Shown: piece by piece, positions 25,627 through 33,837 of the stretch
How positions within the stretch are numbered: the stretch's first letter is position 1
Layout: each line of letters starts with the position of its first letter
Assembly (NCBI GenBank): GCA_013214025.1
Contig: JABSRN010000063.1
Coordinates: 1 to 57,001, forward strand
Reading direction: 5' to 3'
DNA length: 57,001 nt
DNA from: Polyangiaceae bacterium
GTDB taxonomy: Bacteria; Myxococcota_A; Polyangia; Polyangiales; Polyangiaceae
Made by a program: the position numbers and the translations under genes
Notes under the pieces: generated by a model
Database searches by the model: none
Told to the model about the DNA's origin: nothing
The model's input: only the letters and a program-made list of their open reading frames with translations

Positions 25627-26481
25627 ATGGGGGTACTTGGTGGCGCAGTTGAGATCGGGGGAGGCCCCGTCGTGGGGGTGCTCGGCGAGGACCCCTCTGA
25701 GGCGCCGGCGCGCAGCCTGGTGGGTGTTCCTGCGCAAGCTCCGGCCGCTTTTGGGACTTCTGTTTCTGGGACTTCTGTTTCTGGGGCATGCGGCTGTGGG
25801 CTGGGGCAGAGGGGCAAGTCTCGCCGGCTTCGTTTGTCGGAGGAGTTTTGGGGGCTCAGTTGGGAGCATGAACTGCCGGCGCCGGCCGCAGATGGTATCC
25901 ACGTCGAATGTGCATCTCTCGAGACGACCATGCAGTTTATCGCAGCTCACTACGCGGATCTGTTTGAGGCAGAGGGCGAGTCACCGTTCCTGGCGGAAGA
26001 GATGACAAAGGCCAAGGGCCGCTACTACGAGCTCGCAGCGGATCTGTTCGCGTTTCGCGAAGGTGACCAACTCGTTGGTGTGATCGTTGCCAACCCCACC
26101 GACTGGAACTCCTACTATGTTCGGAGTGGAGCGATTCTGCGGAGTCATCGCAGCCGCGGTATTGTCAAACATTTCTTTGAGCTGCTGTTTGATCGCCTCG
26201 GTCGACATGGTGTTGCGCGACTCGAGACGGAGACCTCACCGTCGAACCTGATGGTTGTGCGAATGTTGAACAGCCTTCAGTTCAATATGACGGGTACTTC
26301 GCTATCCGAGCGATGGGGAGCGATGACCCGGTTTACCCGGTTCTTGAATCCGGAAGCCGAGGACGTTTTCTTGGACCAATTTTGCACCGGTCCTCGATAT
26401 CAAAAACAGCTCAGAGGTCAATCGACGTCAGGCCAGCAACCGCACCCAGGGGATAAGTTCTGTCGGGCTCACTCTAGGTAG
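25627..26481 (+). CDS. GNAT-family N-acetyltransferase with low-complexity Ser/Thr/Cys/Gly N-terminal segment
   Basis: From the ATG at 25627 the product has 284 residues; in-frame GTG (25609) and TTG (25588, 25507) starts are also possible and no start has a good ribosome binding site. The acetyltransferase domain covers roughly the last 200 residues: acetyl-CoA loop ILRSHRSRGIVKHFFELLF, followed by ARLETETSPSNLMVVRMLNSLQF. The N-terminal ~75 residues are unusual: Gly/Pro/Ala-rich, then GTSVSGTSVSGACGCGLG, which arises partly from a 15-bp tandem duplication. That segment is dense in Ser, Thr and Cys, the residues used by YcaO-type enzymes. A hairpin overlaps its stop codon. First gene of the proposed peptide-modification locus. 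Confidence 0.72.
   Translation: MGVLGGAVEIGGGPVVGVLGEDPSEAPARSLVGVPAQAPAAFGTSVSGTSVSGACGCGLGQRGKSRRLRLSEEFWGLSWEHELPAPAADGIHVECASLETTMQFIAAHYADLFEAEGESPFLAEEMTKAKGRYYELAADLFAFREGDQLVGVIVANPTDWNSYYVRSGAILRSHRSRGIVKHFFELLFDRLGRHGVARLETETSPSNLMVVRMLNSLQFNMTGTSLSERWGAMTRFTRFLNPEAEDVFLDQFCTGPRYQKQLRGQSTSGQQPHPGDKFCRAHSR
25753..25782 (+). repeat. 15-bp in-frame tandem duplication in the GNAT gene
   Basis: GGGACTTCTGTTTCT is perfectly duplicated (25753-25767 and 25768-25782) and encodes GTSVS twice, in frame with the acetyltransferase. Confidence 0.85.
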
Positions 26482-26493
26482 CAGACTACCTAG
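26474..26493 (+). promoter_or_regulatory. Perfect hairpin at the GNAT stop codon
   Basis: CTAGGTAG (26474-26481) and CTACCTAG (26486-26493) form an 8-bp stem with loop CAGA. The TAG stop of the GNAT gene is in the left arm. Together with the next palindrome it separates the acetyltransferase from the mini-gene and may control read-through or RNA processing. Confidence 0.55.
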
Positions 26494-26506
26494 TTACAAT
26501 CCTTGT

Positions 26507-26527
26507 CGCGGGGGCGCCCCCGCGTTT
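26507..26527 (+). terminator. GC palindrome followed by TTT
   Basis: CGCGGGGGCGCCCCCGCG (26507-26524) is a perfect 18-bp palindrome followed by TTT. It resembles a partial intrinsic terminator or attenuator after the GNAT gene. It lies 10 bp before the Shine-Dalgarno of the mini-gene at 26550, so it could instead shape that gene's leader. Confidence 0.5.
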
Positions 26528-26549
26528 CCGCATAGGAAGGAGGCTCATC

Positions 26550-26582
26550 GTGAAGAAAAAATTCGCCCACATGTCGTTCTAG
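26550..26582 (+). CDS. Ten-codon mini-gene, candidate ultrashort precursor peptide (MKKKFAHMSF)
   Basis: A GTG at 26550 is preceded by AAGGAGG (26537-26543), a full seven-base match to the 16S rRNA 3' end, at the ideal 6-nt spacing. The frame reads MKKKFAHMSF and stops at TAG (26580-26582). The Shine-Dalgarno is far better than those of the flanking enzyme genes, and no other start lies at a suitable distance, so it most likely serves this frame. The peptide has a basic Lys3 head and a FAHMSF tail with His, Met, Ser and Phe as possible modification sites. It lies between the GNAT gene and the diiron oxidase/YcaO pair. Precedents for precursors this short: microcin C (7 residues) and biarylitides (5 residues). 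It could alternatively be a leader peptide that regulates the genes behind it. Confidence 0.5.
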   Translation: MKKKFAHMSF

Positions 26583-26635
26583 TTCGCCCCACCCCCACGC
26601 GGCTCTGTCCGTCCACCTCGTTTCCGAAAGAAGCC

Positions 26636-27295
26636 ATGATGTTAAGCTCAGCACTGCAACAAGAAATCGAAGCCTTCGCCCATCATCTACGCGAAGAACA
26701 TAGCCTCTTTTCGAAGGCGAGGGACGGCCAGCTCTCTGCGCAAGCCATAACACGCTATCTCAACAATGTGCTCTACCTGATTCAGCACACGCCGGTGCAT
26801 TTGAAGTTGGCCTCTCAGGCGGCACAGAACGAAGGGAACGCTGGTCTGGCTTCCTACTTTGAAGAAAAGTTCCGTGAAGAGCAGGGGCACGATGAGTGGG
26901 CGAGGTCCGACATTCGTACACTCGACGAGCGGCGTTCGGTAGCAGCGGTCGACGACGTCAGCGACCATATTCGAGGACTCACTGGATATCTTCGCCGGGT
27001 CATCGGTAAGAACCCGACTGCTTACGTGGCGTACATTTTACTAGCCGAATATCTGATGGTCCTCCTGGGTGAGGAATGGATCTCGAGTCTAGAACAGGGA
27101 TGCGATATTCCCCGGGACGCGCTCAGCGTGGTTGGCAACCACGTGGCTCTCGATCGTGTTCACGCCACTCGCGGTTTCGAAGAAGTGGATGGATTCTTAC
27201 AGGCCGATGGGGAGTTAAGTTGTCTTCGCGATACGTTGCGAAGGTCCATGACTTACATGGAGGAATTCTTTAGCGAGGTCGCTGAGGCGGCGTAA
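26636..27295 (+). CDS. Heme-oxygenase-like diiron oxidase (HDO, CADD-like)
   Basis: The 219-residue helical protein fits the heme-oxygenase-like diiron oxidase superfamily. All six expected metal ligands can be placed with the family's spacing: Glu78 and His85 (EKFREEQGHDEW), Glu138 (LLAEYLMVLLGEEW), and His169, Asp173, His176 in NHVALDRVH. Known members include CADD (para-aminobenzoate synthesis), UndA and SznF, which use two irons and oxygen to oxidise amino acids or fatty acids. Two adjacent ATG codons (26636, 26639) are possible starts. It ends 2 bp before the YcaO gene, implying joint function. Inference: it oxidises a residue of the peptide product, or a small molecule, in the YcaO pathway. 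Confidence 0.85.
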   Translation: MMLSSALQQEIEAFAHHLREEHSLFSKARDGQLSAQAITRYLNNVLYLIQHTPVHLKLASQAAQNEGNAGLASYFEEKFREEQGHDEWARSDIRTLDERRSVAAVDDVSDHIRGLTGYLRRVIGKNPTAYVAYILLAEYLMVLLGEEWISSLEQGCDIPRDALSVVGNHVALDRVHATRGFEEVDGFLQADGELSCLRDTLRRSMTYMEEFFSEVAEAA

Positions 27296-27297
27296 TC

Positions 27298-28311
27298 ATG
27301 CGAACGCTGCGTGAACTCGAAGCGGGCTGCCCACTACCTCCCGGCTGGGGAGACATCGAGATGTTCTCGGAGCAAGTGGATCCTGGCGGTCTCCGTCTTG
27401 AGGTTGTGGGGTTGTGCTCGAAGCACAGCTGTGGCTTGTCCGCGATCGGAAGCGCAGGAAGTTGTGAGACCAGTCCTGTGGACCGGGCGTATTTTGAGTT
27501 GCTAGAACGCTGCGTACTGGTGGATGCGATCGCCGACACCAGCGCTAGTTTCGACCTGCTCGACAGCGCTGGGAAGCCATCTGCTAGGCGTATCAGCCAC
27601 GCTGACTTGTTTCCGGAGAGCGACAGGCCCAATGCGTGGGCATATTCCAAGTCCAATGGCGTTGCCGTTGGCCCTTCCTGGGTCGCGGCGGTTGACTCGG
27701 CTCGGCACGAATTGGTCGAGCGGGACGCCGTATTGCGATCGTGGTTTTTGTGCCAGACGCCGAGGCGTAGTCCGCTGGCGAGGGACTCACCGCTTCGCTC
27801 GGTGTCTCATTTATATGATTTTACTGAATTCGAGTTCGAGACTATCGACGGGACGAATTCGGTGGTGGCTGGCGTCTTCGGCTTTCCCCACGCGGCGCCT
27901 TCGCCCCTGGTGTACGGCTTTGGGGCCCGCGAGACTCGGCAGCTTGCCGTTGCGGCGGCTACTCGAGAGTGCGTTCAGCGGTTGGGATTCCTCTGGGGGG
28001 AGGAGCTTCCCGAGCAACCGCCGGAGCCCGCGCCTACACCTGACTACCACCAGGAGTTCTATCTATGTGCAAGCTCCCATAAGCATTTGCGGCGGTGGCT
28101 CTGGGGTCTTGGCTCTGGCAGTCCGGCCCAGTTGTCCTGCGAACTCTGGCAATCACCGCTGTTCGTTGACCTTAGCCCCGATCATTTACGGTCGCAGCTT
28201 TGGGTTGCGAAGGCATTGCCCCGAGGGCAGGTGCCATTAACCTTCGGTGTGGGGAACCCAGCAATTGCCGGCGATTTGACCGAAGCTATCGCCGTACATC
28301 CGATCGCCTAG
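27298..28311 (+). CDS. YcaO-family ATP-dependent enzyme
   Basis: The 337-residue protein has the three ATP-binding segments of YcaO enzymes: DRAYFELLERC (Glu67, Glu70), SNGVAVGPSWVAAVDSARHE followed by LVERDA (Glu138, Glu141, Asp143), and LAVAAATRECVQRL (Glu224, Gln227). A C-terminal ALPRGQVPLTFG stretch and the end AVHPIA match the family's usual tail. YcaO enzymes activate peptide-bond oxygens with ATP, giving azolines, thioamides or amidines. No E1-like partner (ocin-ThiF), TfuA or dehydrogenase is adjacent, so this would have to act alone or with the diiron oxidase. At 337 residues it is a little shorter than most. The ATG at 27298 directly follows the oxidase stop. Confidence 0.87.
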   Translation: MRTLRELEAGCPLPPGWGDIEMFSEQVDPGGLRLEVVGLCSKHSCGLSAIGSAGSCETSPVDRAYFELLERCVLVDAIADTSASFDLLDSAGKPSARRISHADLFPESDRPNAWAYSKSNGVAVGPSWVAAVDSARHELVERDAVLRSWFLCQTPRRSPLARDSPLRSVSHLYDFTEFEFETIDGTNSVVAGVFGFPHAAPSPLVYGFGARETRQLAVAAATRECVQRLGFLWGEELPEQPPEPAPTPDYHQEFYLCASSHKHLRRWLWGLGSGSPAQLSCELWQSPLFVDLSPDHLRSQLWVAKALPRGQVPLTFGVGNPAIAGDLTEAIAVHPIA

Positions 28312-28452
28312 ATTTCGGGGTGTCCGCTGACCCACTGTCGGCCTCATTGCTCGAAGTCGCGGATCCGGGGTTGAGCCGCGCATCCGGGCAGGCTATTTTC
28401 AGAGAGATTCCGGAGTTGTCGTGTTTTCTCTGCGGCGATTCGAACGCTCTCA

Positions 28453-31400
28453 ATGACGGCAGCATTCGCATCCATTCCTGGCGTTGAGCTTTTCGATGAG
28501 CTCGGCGCCGGCGCGTATAGCGTCGTGTTCCTGGGTCGCGCGCGCGAGGTTCAAGTGGCTGTGAAGATCGCGCGTCTGCCAGAGGGGGGCGAAGCCGACG
28601 CATCGATGCGGAGGAGGTTTCGGCGCGAGGCCCTAACACTGGCTCGATTGAGACATCCGGTGCTTCCGCAGGTCATGGAAGTTGGCGATGCCGATGGTGC
28701 ACCGTACATCGTCATGGAGCTAGCTGCTGGGGAAACACTGGCAAAGCACATCACTCGCGGAGTTCTAGGTGAGTCCACGGTGATCGGACTTGCCGAACAG
28801 GTGGTCCAGGCGCTCGGGCTGATCCATGGGGCAGGCTTGATTCACCGCGACGTGAAACCCAGCAACATCGTGGTCGATGACGCTCTTAGCCAGGCTACGT
28901 TGGTCGATTTTGGTTTCGTCACGGCGAGCGGCAGCGCGTCGCCCGCCATCGGCGCCGGGACACGGGCCTACGCGGCTCCGGAGCAAATGGGTCATGGTCG
29001 GAGGCCGAAATCTCAGGCCGATCTGTACTCGCTCGGCGCGGTAATATTCGAGTGCCTTGCGGGTCGTCTTCCGGTGGCTGTAGTGGACACCGAGCTTCCG
29101 GCGGAGAAGCGCCCAGTTCCGGATGCTCTGCATGCCATACGTCCTGACGTTTCGGTGGAATTGTCGGAACTCGTGAGTGAGTTGCTTTCCGCGCGGCCTG
29201 AGGACCGCCCGCGCGATGCTGCCGAGGTACAGCGCCGATTGCGGACGCTGATCGCGCCCGCTGACCGCAAGGCGGGCTCCGAGCCGCTAGTCGGCAGCCG
29301 CGCCGGGGAAATGCCCCTACTGGGGAGGGACTCAGAATATGAGACTATCGAGCGACTATGGCGCGGTTTGGATCTCACGGGGGGTCAGACCATCCTACTC
29401 AGCGGTCCCCTCGGTTCGGGAAAGTCGAGACTGGCCAGGGCAGTTCGGGGGGGGGCTACGTTTCGGGCGTGTGAATTTATCGAAACCGGGTGTAGTGCCT
29501 GGGAACCGAGATCCTTTGCAGCGGTTCAGCGGCTGATTGAGGGCTACTTGAGCGCTCCTGCGTCGTCGGCAGAGCGAAAAGCTCGGCTGTCTATCGTGAC
29601 TGAGGTGGCTGGCGAGTTTGCCCCTCTGCTCAGCGTCTTATCCCCGATCCTTGCGGATCACTTCGAAGGAGCCGCAAGGGTTCCGCCGTCGGACGATGAA
29701 GTCCACATCTTCGCCGGTGGACTCTCCGAATTTATCACACGACTGTTATCGCGCCTCCGGCCCGCAGTGGTGGTGGTTGACGATGCCCAATGGTTGGACG
29801 CCGGCAGTCGCAAAGTGCTCTTGCAGGTCGCTGATCGGGCGAGCGAGTGCGGGGCGCTCTTCTTGTTTTGCATGCGAGATGATGAGAAGAGCCGCAAGTT
29901 CGGCTGGCGGATGACATCCACGCTGGAGGTGAAGCCCTACGAGATCAAACTGTCTGTGCTCGATGATGAGCAGATTTCTAGCCTCGTCCGCGCCTACCTT
30001 GGGGTAGGGCAACTTGACCCCAAGATCGAAACCAGTATTTTGCGCTTGAGCGACGGTACGCCGCTGAGCGCGTTGGAGATCGTGAAGACGCTACTCGAAT
30101 CCGGGTTGCTGCTGCCGAACTGGGGCGACTGGAAGCTCGATCATGAGCGTGTCCAGGACGTACACCTGTCTAGTGGCACTCAGGCCCTCATGGAGGCACG
30201 ACTGCGGAACCTGGCTAGCGGAACTCAGGCGATGCTCCGAGTGGGCGCCGTGTCGGGGATGAGCTTTGATGTCGAACTCGTCGCGCGCGCGGCGGAACTT
30301 TCCGCGCAAGGACTTTTGGAAGCTCAGGAGGAGGGCCGAGAGGCGCAGCTCTTCGTAGAGCAGGAGGATGGTCAGCTACGCTTCGTGCACGAGGCGATTC
30401 GAGAAGCTATCCAATTACCCTGCACCGAGTCGCAGTTGAAAAATATCCACCAGCGCCTAGCGGAGGAGCTAGACGGCGGAGCTGCATCGGGGGTTGAGAC
30501 GAGCCGCGAGCGCGCTTACTCCCTCGCGCGTCACTACGGAAGTGGTGTCATCGAGCAACGGCCGGCGCGGGTGTTCGAGACTAGCCTTCGGGCAGGGCGG
30601 ATGGCGTTTTCAGCCTATGACAACCAGAGGGCAATCGCGTCCCTGGAGATGGCAAAGGAAGCGGGTCTCCTCTGCGGACGATCATTAGATGAAGATGCCG
30701 AGCTGGTGGTGGGAGAGGCGTTGCTGAGAATCGGAGAGCTCGATAGAAGCCGCGCTCATTTCCTCAAGCTGTCGGCGGAGCTCTCCGAAGCAGATAGTCG
30801 AGGTCGTGCGTTTGCTCGCTTGGCGTGGATCGAACAGACCCGAGCCGACTCGGATGCGGCGTGGGTGTTGCTGGGTCAGGCGTTTTCTGAGTTTGGTGAA
30901 ACGATTCCCGACGGTCAGGCTGGAACCCTGGTCCGTAGGCTCGCCGAGCGAGTGGGGCGCCCGGCGCCGCGTCCATCCGACAGTGCGGAGCGCGAGCGGC
31001 TCGAGACGCTGTCGGATTTGCACTACCAAAGCGGACGACTCGGAATTCAAAGCGGCCAACCAGCGCGGCTCATCGAAGCTACCCTGCGGGGGCTTGAACT
31101 AGCGGAAGCGCTCGGTCCTTCCGCCGCGCTCAGCAAAGCTTGGCTGATGTACAGCTTTATTCTGACCGTTACCGGAATGAAGGGGAGCGGTCGGGAGTAC
31201 TGGGAGCGCGCTGCTAAGGTTGCCGAAGAAATCAACGATCCTGTAGCAGAGGGGCATGCTCTTCAGGTTTCCGCGGCCATATCCGCATGGGGTGGCGATC
31301 TCACGGAGAGCTTGAGTCGAGCGGAGCGAGCGCTCACGACCTACGGCCATTGGATGGAGCTCGCGGAATACTGCACGCTGATTCAGAACAACTTGAGCAT

Positions 31401-33837
31401 CGAGTCCTTTCGGGGTCGTGGCGTGGAAGCGTGGCGGTGGTTGCAGCTGGCACTGCATAAAGTGCGTCATCATGACGCAGGGCCGGCGTTGCCTGAGGTG
31501 GTCGAGGTCACGGCCAGGGCGGTGTTGACCGAGCTGGGGCGCGAGAACGAGATCGGCGGGATCTTAGGCCCCCTTCGCAGCAAGGTGCAGCCAGCTCCCC
31601 CTGACAGCGACATGTACCTCCTCATGTACGGAAGCCGATTGCGTATTTTTACCGAACGCGGCGACCTGGGCGTTGGATTCGAAGCTCTGGTTGGTGAATT
31701 TGAAGCCAGAAAGCAGGACCCAAAGAAGATCCATCTGGTGGCCAGGGACTACTACGTCCATGTAGCGCATGCACGAGTGCACGCTTGCGTCCGAGAGAGA
31801 GGGGGGAAATCCCTGGATGCCCTTCGCAAGGCGGCAAAAGATCTCCGCAGGGCAGCGCGGATCCCCGTGATCCGCGCGCACGCCTTGGCGGTTGATGGCT
31901 GGCTACTTTGGTTTGAGGGCGAGTCTCGCAAAGCGTTAGGTAAATTTCAGAAAGCTGAGGAACTCGGGATCTCAGAAGTGTCACCTCTCGTCTTGTACTC
32001 CGTTGCTCGCGGGCGGGCACATCTGCTTCGGGGTCAAGGCAACGATGGCGCTGCTCAGGACCAGGCTCGTGTCGCCGAGGCAGTCGCGACAGCTCACGGG
32101 TCGGCATATCGCGCCCAATGGATTCGCGAAGACTTTAAGTTTGGAAAGTCCGCACGGAAAGGTAAACAAGGGTCGTTGTCCTCAGCTGAGTCATCGACCC
32201 AACGGGTCTCGGAGGTGTCTCGCTCTCGGCGCCACTTGCGAGCTTTGCTGAAGGTCAGCCAGGCATCGGCGAGGGAACTGGACCCCAACCACCTTGCTCG
32301 GGAGGTGCTGGATGAACTCGTTTCAGCTCTAGGGGCTGAACGGGGCGTGTTGCTCATGCGACCGGAGGGGCCCAGCCGCGCTAACGGTCAACTTGACGTG
32401 ATGGTCGCGCGGGATGCCCACGGGGAGGACTTTATTATCCGTGACTACGATCGGGCGATGGTCGAAGAGGTGTTTTTTTGCAGAGTTGCCCACTTCGGCC
32501 ACGTTAGCGATTCGAAACGCCGTGGCGCTACAACGAGTTCAGTCGCTGCGCCTCTGATCGTCCACGATGAAGCTCTCGGTGTGATCTATTTGGAAGGCGC
32601 ACGCCGAGCGACGGGGTTCAGTGAAGAAGACGCTGACGTCCTCAGTGCCTTGGCGAACCAGGTTCCTGTTGCGTTGGAGCTAGCGCACGCCTTGCGCGAC
32701 AGACAGCAGCTACAAGAAGATCTACAGCATGCCCAAAAGATGGAGGCTGTTGGGCGTCTGGCCGGCGGCATCGCTCACGACTTTAATAACATGCTGGCGG
32801 CAATTCGAGTGAGCGTGGATTCAATGCTCGCGACGAAGGAGGGGCACGCCAGCGAAGACCTCCGCACGATTCGTAGTGCCGCCGACCGGGCGAGCAAACT
32901 CACTCGGCAGCTATTGGCATTCTCGAAGCGCCAGATCCGAGTTCCGCTCGTGATCGACATTAACGACATCGTCCAGGCAATCGCGCCGGTGCTCCTGAAG
33001 CTCGTTGGCGATCGGGTGAACCTGGAACTCGATCTCAGTCCTGAGCTTGATCACGTGCGCGCTGACCCGGATCAGCTGGAGCAAGTGCTGGTTAACCTTG
33101 TAGTGAACGCTTGTGATGCCATGCCTGATGGCGGAACCTTGACGATTCGTACGGACAGTACCGACGTCTCGAAAGATGAGGGTGGCCTGATGCCTGGGCG
33201 GTACACGCGTCTGAGCGTGTCGGATACCGGCCAGGGAATTGAACCGGCGAACGTCGAGCGGATCTTCGAGCCGTTCTTTACGACCAAGGCTGCCGCGTCG
33301 GGTACTGGGCTCGGCTTGGCAACTGTCTATGGAATCGTGAGTCAGTCCGACGGGCGCATCGACGTGGAGAGCCAGCTCGGAGAAGGTGCTTGTTTCACTA
33401 TTCATCTACCGAGCACATCGGACGCGCCAAGTGTACGCGCGATCGCGATCACCGAACCACTGCAGCATGGTTCAGAGACGATCCTGTTGGTTGAAGATGA
33501 AATGCTCGTACGGCGCGCGCTATCGCGGGCGATGCGCGGTTGGGGCTATGAGGTGGTGACAGCCGATGGCGGGCCCGAGGCGCTTAAGATCGTGCAGGAC
33601 GCGGTGACGCCGATCGATTTGGTTGTGACGGACGTGATCATGCCGGGAATGAACGGCAACGAGCTCGTTCGGGAGCTTCTGCATGGCTCAGATGATCTCA
33701 AGGTCTTGTACATTTCGGGGTACACCGACGGCGTTCTCTCTCCGGAGGACCGCAGCCGCGAGTGGAGCGGTTTTCTCCAGAAACCCTTTTCTCACGAAGA
33801 ACTGGCTGCCAGCCTACGCGAGCTGTTGGACGGGTAG
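28453..33837 (+). CDS. Ser/Thr kinase-ATPase-TPR-GAF-histidine kinase-receiver fusion regulator
   Basis: This is a 1,794-residue cytosolic signalling protein. Order: Ser/Thr kinase (G-loop GAGAYSV 18-24, Lys38, HRDVKPSN with Asp133, DFG 152-154, APE 175-177); an AAA-type ATPase with Walker A GPLGSGKS (318-325) and Walker B VVVVDDAQW; a long helical TPR-like region (about 680-1240); GAF domain (about 1255-1420); histidine kinase core with His1442 (GGIAHDFNN) and NLVVNACDAM; and a receiver with Asp1727 (TDVIMPGMNG). All catalytic residues appear intact. Proteins of this class are common in myxobacteria. Kinase/ATPase fusions ending in an adenylate cyclase are described from thiazole/oxazole peptide (TOMM) loci, so this may be the cognate regulator of the YcaO locus. 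The gap to YcaO is 141 bp. Confidence 0.9.
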   Translation: MTAAFASIPGVELFDELGAGAYSVVFLGRAREVQVAVKIARLPEGGEADASMRRRFRREALTLARLRHPVLPQVMEVGDADGAPYIVMELAAGETLAKHITRGVLGESTVIGLAEQVVQALGLIHGAGLIHRDVKPSNIVVDDALSQATLVDFGFVTASGSASPAIGAGTRAYAAPEQMGHGRRPKSQADLYSLGAVIFECLAGRLPVAVVDTELPAEKRPVPDALHAIRPDVSVELSELVSELLSARPEDRPRDAAEVQRRLRTLIAPADRKAGSEPLVGSRAGEMPLLGRDSEYETIERLWRGLDLTGGQTILLSGPLGSGKSRLARAVRGGATFRACEFIETGCSAWEPRSFAAVQRLIEGYLSAPASSAERKARLSIVTEVAGEFAPLLSVLSPILADHFEGAARVPPSDDEVHIFAGGLSEFITRLLSRLRPAVVVVDDAQWLDAGSRKVLLQVADRASECGALFLFCMRDDEKSRKFGWRMTSTLEVKPYEIKLSVLDDEQISSLVRAYLGVGQLDPKIETSILRLSDGTPLSALEIVKTLLESGLLLPNWGDWKLDHERVQDVHLSSGTQALMEARLRNLASGTQAMLRVGAVSGMSFDVELVARAAELSAQGLLEAQEEGREAQLFVEQEDGQLRFVHEAIREAIQLPCTESQLKNIHQRLAEELDGGAASGVETSRERAYSLARHYGSGVIEQRPARVFETSLRAGRMAFSAYDNQRAIASLEMAKEAGLLCGRSLDEDAELVVGEALLRIGELDRSRAHFLKLSAELSEADSRGRAFARLAWIEQTRADSDAAWVLLGQAFSEFGETIPDGQAGTLVRRLAERVGRPAPRPSDSAERERLETLSDLHYQSGRLGIQSGQPARLIEATLRGLELAEALGPSAALSKAWLMYSFILTVTGMKGSGREYWERAAKVAEEINDPVAEGHALQVSAAISAWGGDLTESLSRAERALTTYGHWMELAEYCTLIQNNLSIESFRGRGVEAWRWLQLALHKVRHHDAGPALPEVVEVTARAVLTELGRENEIGGILGPLRSKVQPAPPDSDMYLLMYGSRLRIFTERGDLGVGFEALVGEFEARKQDPKKIHLVARDYYVHVAHARVHACVRERGGKSLDALRKAAKDLRRAARIPVIRAHALAVDGWLLWFEGESRKALGKFQKAEELGISEVSPLVLYSVARGRAHLLRGQGNDGAAQDQARVAEAVATAHGSAYRAQWIREDFKFGKSARKGKQGSLSSAESSTQRVSEVSRSRRHLRALLKVSQASARELDPNHLAREVLDELVSALGAERGVLLMRPEGPSRANGQLDVMVARDAHGEDFIIRDYDRAMVEEVFFCRVAHFGHVSDSKRRGATTSSVAAPLIVHDEALGVIYLEGARRATGFSEEDADVLSALANQVPVALELAHALRDRQQLQEDLQHAQKMEAVGRLAGGIAHDFNNMLAAIRVSVDSMLATKEGHASEDLRTIRSAADRASKLTRQLLAFSKRQIRVPLVIDINDIVQAIAPVLLKLVGDRVNLELDLSPELDHVRADPDQLEQVLVNLVVNACDAMPDGGTLTIRTDSTDVSKDEGGLMPGRYTRLSVSDTGQGIEPANVERIFEPFFTTKAAASGTGLGLATVYGIVSQSDGRIDVESQLGEGACFTIHLPSTSDAPSVRAIAITEPLQHGSETILLVEDEMLVRRALSRAMRGWGYEVVTADGGPEALKIVQDAVTPIDLVVTDVIMPGMNGNELVRELLHGSDDLKVLYISGYTDGVLSPEDRSREWSGFLQKPFSHEELAASLRELLDG

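Follow-up and report, generated by a model that had tools for sequence, protein, structure and literature searches.

The window analysed here is a 57,001-nt stretch of DNA from a Polyangiaceae bacterium (contig JABSRN010000063.1), and our subject within it is a compact locus that includes a gene of only ten codons. On the plus strand, the window's list of open reading frames (ORFs) gives, in order, a GNAT-family acyltransferase, the mini-ORF, a heme-oxygenase-like diiron oxidase/oxygenase (HDO), a YcaO enzyme and a giant kinase. Pfam identifies the GNAT, YcaO and kinase domains, and the five same-strand frames described in an earlier note on this DNA are confirmed. That note had listed the ten-codon gene and left it unused; with 23 conserved loci in hand, we place it at the centre, as the likely substrate of the enzymes beside it. 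The features of the locus are as follows.

To 26481, start ATG 25627 or, in the longest reading, TTG 25507; plus strand: GNAT-family acyltransferase (PF00583, 3.4e-7)
26534..26543, plus strand: Shine-Dalgarno-like stretch AGGAAGGAGG of the mini-gene (from sequence)
26550..26582, plus strand: ten-codon mini-gene, product (f)M-K-K-K-F-A-H-M-S-F, the proposed modified substrate (one of 23 such genes)
26636..27295, plus strand: HDO, 219 aa (fold model, PDB matches, six ligand residues)
27298..28311, plus strand: YcaO enzyme of a discrete clade, 337 aa (PF02624, 3.3e-14; clade support; ATP-site residues; model matches)
28453..33837, plus strand: fusion of Ser/Thr kinase, AAA, middle region, GAF, histidine kinase and receiver, 1794 aa (Pfam)

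The mini-gene, downstream of AGGAAGGAGG, reads GTG AAG AAA AAA TTC GCC CAC ATG TCG TTC TAG, with GTG as the start codon. The start of the GNAT gene is uncertain; similarity to its homologues begins only at residues 101 to 110 of the long reading, at about 25825.

Conservation of the mini-gene

The order GNAT-HDO-YcaO-kinase is kept in other genomes at 31 to 49% identity over the best stretches, and sequence comparison indicates that its recurrence is more than chance. An HDO search over 116 related genomes gave a match in 19, with 11 at E values below 1e-30, the window's genome included. Wherever the sequence of a locus reached far enough upstream, a 9- or 10-codon ORF of one pattern lay between the GNAT and HDO genes. 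Our collection holds 23 mini-gene loci from 22 genomes. Besides the window, 20 of these came from HDO or YcaO searches, and their peptides were therefore not selected by sequence; two more, in genomes G030 and G501, were first met through the peptide pattern.

The 23 mini-genes, nine codons long in 13 cases and ten in 10, share the pattern M-[KR]-K-(K/R)-F-A-x-x-[S/T/C]-[F/L/Y/H]. K3, F and A are each invariant in all 23, and positions -3 and -4 are variable. The penultimate position is always T (9), S (8) or C (6), and the last residue is F (16), L (5), Y (1) or H (1). The invariant Ala is spread over all four of its codons (GCC 6, GCT 6, GCA 6, GCG 5) and the penultimate Ser is drawn from both codon families (TCG/TCC/TCA and AGC/AGT), from which it follows that selection acts on the peptide. 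AGGA or GGAG stands just upstream of 21 of the 23 genes, and a perfect stem of at least 8 bp occurs within 80 nt 3' of 12 of them, compared with 0.39 expected from dinucleotide shuffles. The clearest of these hairpins, after the G501 gene, is terminator-like, with a 16-bp stem between A and T runs. The window has a perfect 18-bp GC palindrome, CGCGGGGGCGCCCCCGCG, at 26507-26524, between the GNAT gene and the ribosome site of the mini-gene; in many of the other loci a hairpin follows the mini-gene instead.

All 23 mini-genes adjoin a YcaO and/or an HDO gene, the arrangement of a gene-encoded precursor beside modifying enzymes, and all their loci hold a YcaO of the window's clade except two, whose genomes carry one elsewhere. 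The set of mini-gene, HDO and YcaO occurs in two phyla, that of the window (more than 377 genomes) and Bdellovibrionota, to which Oligoflexus belongs; the phylum of the Oligoflexus genome G489 (58 genomes) is different from that of the window.

Further searches used the peptide pattern, independently of the enzymes. A strict DNA pattern was found in 4 of 377 genomes of the window's phylum (G000, G408, G030 and G072) and nowhere in a backward control, and all four are among the 7 of these 377 genomes that carry a clade YcaO (Fisher 4e-8, kinship not removed); of the six mini-gene genomes in this set, G021 and G364 escape it. A looser pattern, lacking the S/T/C rule, was run over the 58 genomes of the G489 phylum and gave 39 places in 25 genomes, compared with 22 in the backward control, so that most of its matches are background, many of them out of frame. 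They include the genes of G518 and both genes of G521, already known via the HDO, and the new gene in G501, which encodes MKKRFALACF and immediately precedes a clade YcaO. Six in-frame places were fetched, and only the G501 gene among them has a ribosome site and a clade YcaO; both are absent at the other five (G494, G511, a second place in G501, G490 and G516). None of the remaining full-length in-frame places, left unfetched, ends in S/T/C plus F/L/Y/H.

Locus types and the neighbouring enzymes

A uniform recount over 25 loci gave 23 mini-genes, 22 HDOs (one a remnant), 22 clade YcaOs, 19 GNATs and 18 kinases. Two loci were counted as HDO loci without a mini-gene, L068, where the contig ends 63 bp before the HDO, and L025, from an Oligoflexus metagenome-assembled genome. 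We also counted L076 (genome G105), whose HDO is split over two overlapping frames at 630-1317, by a frameshift or an assembly error; its mini-gene and GNAT look whole. Genome G065 (L078), where the HDO at the end of a contig is broken into two frames, was excluded, G079 (L191) and the unlinked YcaOs L162-L164 were not treated as loci, and HDO profile matches below 100 bits and other HDO families (L014-L020, L022-L024 and L026-L067, 21-31% identity) were left out. Five weaker HDO loci (L124-L128) were inspected for a mini-gene, and none that fits was found. One of them, L128:1852-8113 in G301, from another family of the class, has a locus-like kinase (354 bits) followed directly by an HDO-like ORF (54 bits) with no Pfam match.

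The arrangement falls into five types. Type A, GNAT-mini-HDO-YcaO-kinase, is that of the window and most loci of its order. In type B (G039 and G008) the YcaO is missing from an otherwise identical series and lies elsewhere in the genome, and in type C (G042 and G026) the order is B12-rSAM-GNAT-mini-YcaO-kinase, with a B12-dependent radical SAM (B12-rSAM) gene and no HDO. Genome G030 keeps GNAT, mini-gene, YcaO and kinase together with an HDO remnant that lacks the ligand segments; at L122:2900-3600 we see an open frame of about 120 codons missing the ExxH and HxxxDxxH stretches. Type D, YcaO-GNAT-mini-HDO, is found in G364, from another class of the window's phylum, with the peptide MRKKFALACY, a convergent winged-helix regulator gene and no kinase on the 10-kb contig. 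Type E belongs to the G489 phylum: G518 has mini-HDO-YcaO, both copies in G521 have HDO-YcaO and a mini-gene on the other strand, and G501 has mini-YcaO with a divergent B12-rSAM gene. In all 19 mini-gene loci of the window's phylum, the window included, the gene immediately before the mini-gene is a GNAT homologue.

HDO and YcaO genes are direct neighbours in 17 of 21 HDO loci, the exceptions being G039, G008, G364 and Oligoflexus, and this answers the question, raised earlier, of whether homologues of the two adjoin elsewhere. Across 183 genomes of the window's order, a strong HDO (above 200 bits) is present in 16 and a clade YcaO in 20; all 16 strong-HDO genomes have the YcaO, compared with 4 of the 167 others (G030, G042, G026 and G079; Fisher 1e-19, kinship not corrected). 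The pairing put forward in the earlier note stands for most loci but fails at the three without an HDO, at G030, with its remnant, and at the two loci whose YcaO lies elsewhere. An obligate joint step of YcaO and HDO was rejected, since the loci of G039 and G008 lack the YcaO, those of G042, G026 and G501 lack the HDO, and G030 has only the remnant. Loss of the YcaO from G039 and G008 was likewise rejected, since both genomes have YcaOs elsewhere that fall inside the clade. The unlinked clade YcaO of G008 lies directly behind a PAPS-reductase gene (L163:7784-9873).

The 25 YcaOs of the clade group together with support of 100/100. Three further YcaOs from these genomes fall outside the group; their rows are only 38-45% filled. 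A clade profile scored the members at 202-480 bits; among five other YcaOs, three scored 11.9-20.1 bits and two gave no match. E67, E70, E138, E141, E224 and Q227 are invariant in 25 of 25 members. By family motifs we take these to be the ATP residues, in line with the ATP segments pointed out earlier. The model of the window's YcaO (pLDDT 86.9) matches McbD (Z 20.7), the YcaOs of M. kandleri (20.4) and M. jannaschii (19.6), the heterocyclase 4v1u (18.9) and 4q84 (15.4), the last presumably the E. coli YcaO. NF040716, the family of the ribosomal S12/E. coli YcaO, gave no match to the window's YcaO at E<=1 and was weakly matched by 4 of 4 other YcaOs from related genomes. Because of this result and the closer structural match to McbD than to 4q84, membership in that non-peptide type, proposed earlier as a check, is rejected. 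The best NCBIfam match is TIGR03604, a thiazole/oxazole former, at 29.8 bits, well under the SagD-family cut-off of 219.25; TIGR03604 is also the sole NCBIfam match among six other clade YcaOs scanned, far below cut-off. Pfam revealed no E1-like partner, flavin dehydrogenase or TfuA among the four locus proteins, and neither these nor 40 proteins from the flanks of related loci gave a ThiF- or PqqD-like match. One scan found no viral relatives of the YcaO, and PDB sequences at E<=1 yielded none for the YcaO and two chance-like matches for the HDO.

The HDO begins the series of enzymes downstream of the mini-gene in the window and ends 2 bp before the YcaO, a gap that the earlier note had given correctly. 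It matches Haem_oxygenas_2 (PF14518) with E 0.0019 and 18.5 bits, below the cut-off of 28.9. Its model (mean pLDDT 94.7) matches 3dde (Z 25.3), CADD (CtCADD, Z 21.9), HrmI (Z 20.6) and also UndA, and a heme-oxygenase-like helical fold is thus supported by the prediction. E82, H85, E138, H169, D173 and H176 are kept in 20 of 20 homologues, a 3-His/3-carboxylate set which we take, by family motif, to be the metal ligands. The HDO-less loci of G042, G026 and G501 carry homologous B12-rSAM genes (59% and 29-32% identity). A scan of 27 further loci, of which several are short or truncated at a contig end, turned up no such homologue. NCBIfam matches of these proteins are spread over B12-rSAM families, all far below cut-offs, with ApyD, of a pathway for ribosomally synthesized and post-translationally modified peptides (RiPPs), first for two of the three. 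With three mini-gene loci that have a B12-rSAM gene and no HDO, the earlier idea of a diiron oxidase in place of the flavin dehydrogenase does not hold as a universal.

The kinase protein has the Pfam domains Pkinase, AAA_16, GAF, HisKA, HATPase_c and Response_reg. In the window's order, 18 of 19 loci have a homologue of the fusion downstream, and the 19th (L076) ends at a contig edge inside the YcaO. The likeness to kinase fusions of TOMM (thiazole/oxazole-modified microcin) loci, suggested before, is partial: TIGR03903 matches at 1.7e-51, with the kinase domain as the best stretch, but with 175 bits against a cut-off of 706. The middle region was considered as a fast-evolving sensor and found no support, with a mean identity among seven kinases of 0.34, compared with 0.31 for AAA and 0.30 for GAF. 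In the G489 phylum a two-component gene is close by in 5 of 5 loci. G518, one G521 copy and the HDO of G489 have 7TM-DISM histidine kinases, G501 has another HATPase kinase, and the second G521 copy has a response regulator and, about 1.6 kb away, a PAS hybrid kinase.

Several further arrangements were seen around these genes. In the window, the nearest larger frames beyond the locus are all on the other strand: upstream, a bacterial alpha-2-macroglobulin gene; downstream, a piece of an integrase core and a gene for an SMP-30-like protein. An ORF trio of equal sizes runs convergent to the clade YcaO in G518 (L194:3842-7439; MmgE/PrpD, PEP mutase-like and enoyl-CoA hydratase) and in Oligoflexus (L164:4137-7727), where the HDO and its histidine kinase lie on a different contig from that YcaO. 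In G079 (L191:3122-8210) the clade YcaO is found in another peptide-modifying setting, its neighbours being an MNIO (PF05114) and a short ORF rich in Cys; the ORF has a signal-peptide-like start, a DUF2063-like gene is nearby, by eye, and the set resembles a bufferin cluster plus YcaO. Genome G008 has a second, different pair at L157:1441-3889, a YcaO (best NCBIfam matches TIGR03266 and TIGR00702) divergent from a PF14518 gene for an iron-containing redox enzyme.

A proposed pathway and its alternatives

We consider it probable (about 0.72) that the locus makes a chemically modified, ribosomally encoded peptide of 9-10 residues in a RiPP-like pathway. The precursor gene would be the mini-gene, which has a ribosome site, 9-10 codons and a stop and is followed immediately by a perfect hairpin in roughly half of the loci; its peptide is very likely the enzyme substrate. 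The N-terminal M-[KR]-K-(K/R)-F-A would serve as a recognition tag for the enzymes and the last four residues, x-x-[S/T/C]-[F/L/Y/H], as the modified part. Using ATP and no E1-like or TfuA partner, the YcaO would activate the amide before the penultimate Ser/Thr/Cys and close an oxazoline or thiazoline there. Given the invariant tag, the strict choice of S/T/C and the intact YcaO, an azoline at this residue is the simplest reading, to which we give even odds. The O2-dependent diiron HDO could act next on the heterocycle or the last residue, so that the C-terminal end is oxidised or C-modified, and in HDO-less loci the B12-rSAM enzyme could take this later step. In chlorophyll synthesis, the diiron AcsF and the B12-radical-SAM BchE do one job, and this parallel suggests, with odds somewhat short of even, that the HDO and B12-rSAM enzymes do equivalent chemistry. 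HDO-less and YcaO-displaced loci retain the same peptide, an argument for separate steps. Within the GNAT-bearing branch, the GNAT may acylate the amine of the peptide or a lysine, a role that we regard as tentative, and the neighbouring kinase might control the pathway or sense its product, the latter being doubtful. It is conceivable, though rather unlikely, that the whole forms a peptide signalling module, in which a leaderless product of 9-10 codons is remodelled by the YcaO and the interchangeable HDO or B12-rSAM enzyme into a ligand for the adjacent kinase. On that reading, kinases of different architecture in an equivalent position in the two phyla would be expected, the kinase being tied to the peptide and not kept by common descent. 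The RiPP-type pathway of YcaO and diiron oxidase in the earlier note is supported, with no E1-like partner or flavin dehydrogenase among the locus proteins, except that the HDO is not universal as a replacement for that dehydrogenase.

Several observations weigh against this pathway. The genomes are mostly drafts and related, so the counts are not independent. The mini-gene of the window itself is not followed by a hairpin (the longest perfect stem is 3), and 11 of the 23 lack a perfect stem of 8. VKKFASESF in G516 ends in S-F although both a ribosome site and enzymes of this kind are missing there, so such strings also arise by chance. Conversely, G079 has a clade YcaO, with no strict-pattern match and none on its 15-kb stretch, and Oligoflexus G489 has an HDO and a clade YcaO, with no mini-gene by the looser pattern or beside either. 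S/T is kept at -2 in both loci whose YcaO lies elsewhere (G039 and G008); therefore either this YcaO works in trans or S/T/C has some other function. The B12-rSAM frame of G501 is stopped after 439 aa, with weak similarity continuing behind the stop. Among the 40 flanking proteins scanned no protease or exporter recurs, the single cases being a trypsin-like protein by G501 and a POT transporter near one G521 copy. What the sequences themselves show is the amino-acid conservation of the peptide, the co-occurrence of the genes, intact catalytic residues and the alternation of HDO and B12-rSAM; the chemistry and the product are deduced from these.

A small ORF just upstream of an HDO or YcaO gene in most loci, often with an attenuator-like hairpin after it, could instead be a regulatory leader peptide, at which stalling or attenuation controls the downstream enzyme gene while the enzymes act on something else. 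In both G521 copies, however, the mini-gene is on the strand opposite HDO-YcaO, so that a fixed same-strand position upstream is not kept, and in one copy the first co-oriented ORF of at least 70 aa in the ORF list begins about 620 bp downstream. The next co-oriented gene varies among HDO, YcaO and histidine kinase, and it is amino acids, including the hydroxyl or thiol residue, that are conserved, not codons. A leader peptide was rejected as the main explanation on these grounds and appears very improbable. That the GNAT, HDO and YcaO merely share an operon by coincidence, acting on unrelated small molecules beside a mini-ORF that is noise, draws on the size and mixed functions of the families to which GNAT, HDO and kinase belong. 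It is contradicted by a gene order that persists across many genera at 31-49% identity and by the recurrence of the YcaO-HDO-mini set in another phylum, and is hardly credible.

Two other alternatives accept the peptide as a substrate and differ in the outcome. PqqA gives PQQ, PqqC has the HDO fold, and the mini-peptide, with its tiny size, conserved tag and small variable C-terminus, could likewise be a scaffold that is cut to release a small product, resembling a cofactor or metallophore, made of its two or three C-terminal residues. A remark on rufomycin that a pentapeptide can serve as a building block (PMC12951456) fits such a role. Yet a cofactor must have fixed atoms, and the residues at the end of the peptide vary (F, L, Y, H; S, T, C); no protease recurs in the flanks scanned, and we find a scaffold unlikely. 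Archaeal YcaOs are thioamide formers, and their match to the model of the window's YcaO (Z 20.4 and 19.6) is as good as that of McbD (20.7); together with the lack of an E1-like partner and the PAPS-reductase gene next to the unlinked G008 copy, this leaves room for a thioamide or other backbone change, with S/T/C serving for recognition only. There is, however, no TfuA among the locus proteins, TIGR03604 is the best or sole NCBIfam match, if far below cut-off, and the strict choice of S/T/C fits cyclodehydration; a thioamide or other backbone change is accordingly unlikely.

Known systems and significance

The earlier note knew of no characterised cluster with such a set, but a RiPP cluster with a YcaO and a heme-oxygenase-like protein exists: that of the thiovarsolins, with varA, varY (YcaO), varT (TfuA) and varO (heme-oxygenase-like), in which deletion of varO suggests a dehydrogenase role (PMC6511847). 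An HDO review cites the thiovarsolin paper for ribosomal peptide modification (PMC13108848). The two systems differ in that thiovarsolins need TfuA, have a repeating precursor and a thioamide product, and lack the mini-gene and the GNAT and kinase of our locus. Microcin C differs in that other enzymes, one of them ThiF-like, add a C-terminal nucleotide and there is no YcaO or HDO; our locus proteins include no ThiF-type adenylyltransferase. The likeness lies in the tiny precursor gene with a terminator behind it: mccA has seven codons and a transcription terminator before the next gene, and the yield of product is much lower with precursors of at least 11 residues (PMC6495379). Very short precursors are also known from the biarylitides and the myxobacterial myxarylin, where the first two residues of a pentapeptide act as leader, but there a P450 cross-links Tyr and His, with no YcaO or HDO (PMC12951456).

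With azol(in)e cyclodehydratases (McbD, SagD-type enzymes and heterocyclases) the window's YcaO shares the fold, the ATP residues and S/T/C at the likely site, but it has no E1-like partner or flavin dehydrogenase at its locus, a substrate of 9-10 residues and a score below the SagD cut-off. The HDO resembles CtCADD, UndA, HrmI and SznF in fold and in the 3-His/3-carboxylate set (PMC13108848); those characterised act mostly on fatty or amino acids, whereas that of the window is tied to a gene-encoded peptide. In open PMC full text, which leaves most subscription papers outside, we found no report of the peptide family or of a YcaO with a diiron enzyme, and no match to the literal peptide stems of the mini-genes. 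The tiny substrate, the partner-free YcaO, the exchange of HDO and B12-rSAM and the link to a kinase therefore appear new within RiPP-like biosynthesis.

RiPP mining relies on leader peptides, RiPP recognition element (RRE) domains and E1-like partners, none of which a nine-codon gene has, and such a gene falls below the size reported by gene callers. If the pathway is as proposed, the family would be directly testable, with a substrate that is visible and short enough for synthesis. It would offer a YcaO that needs no docking partner and possibly a diiron/B12-radical-SAM pair acting on one peptide, and it may represent a new type of peptide signal or peptide-derived natural product.

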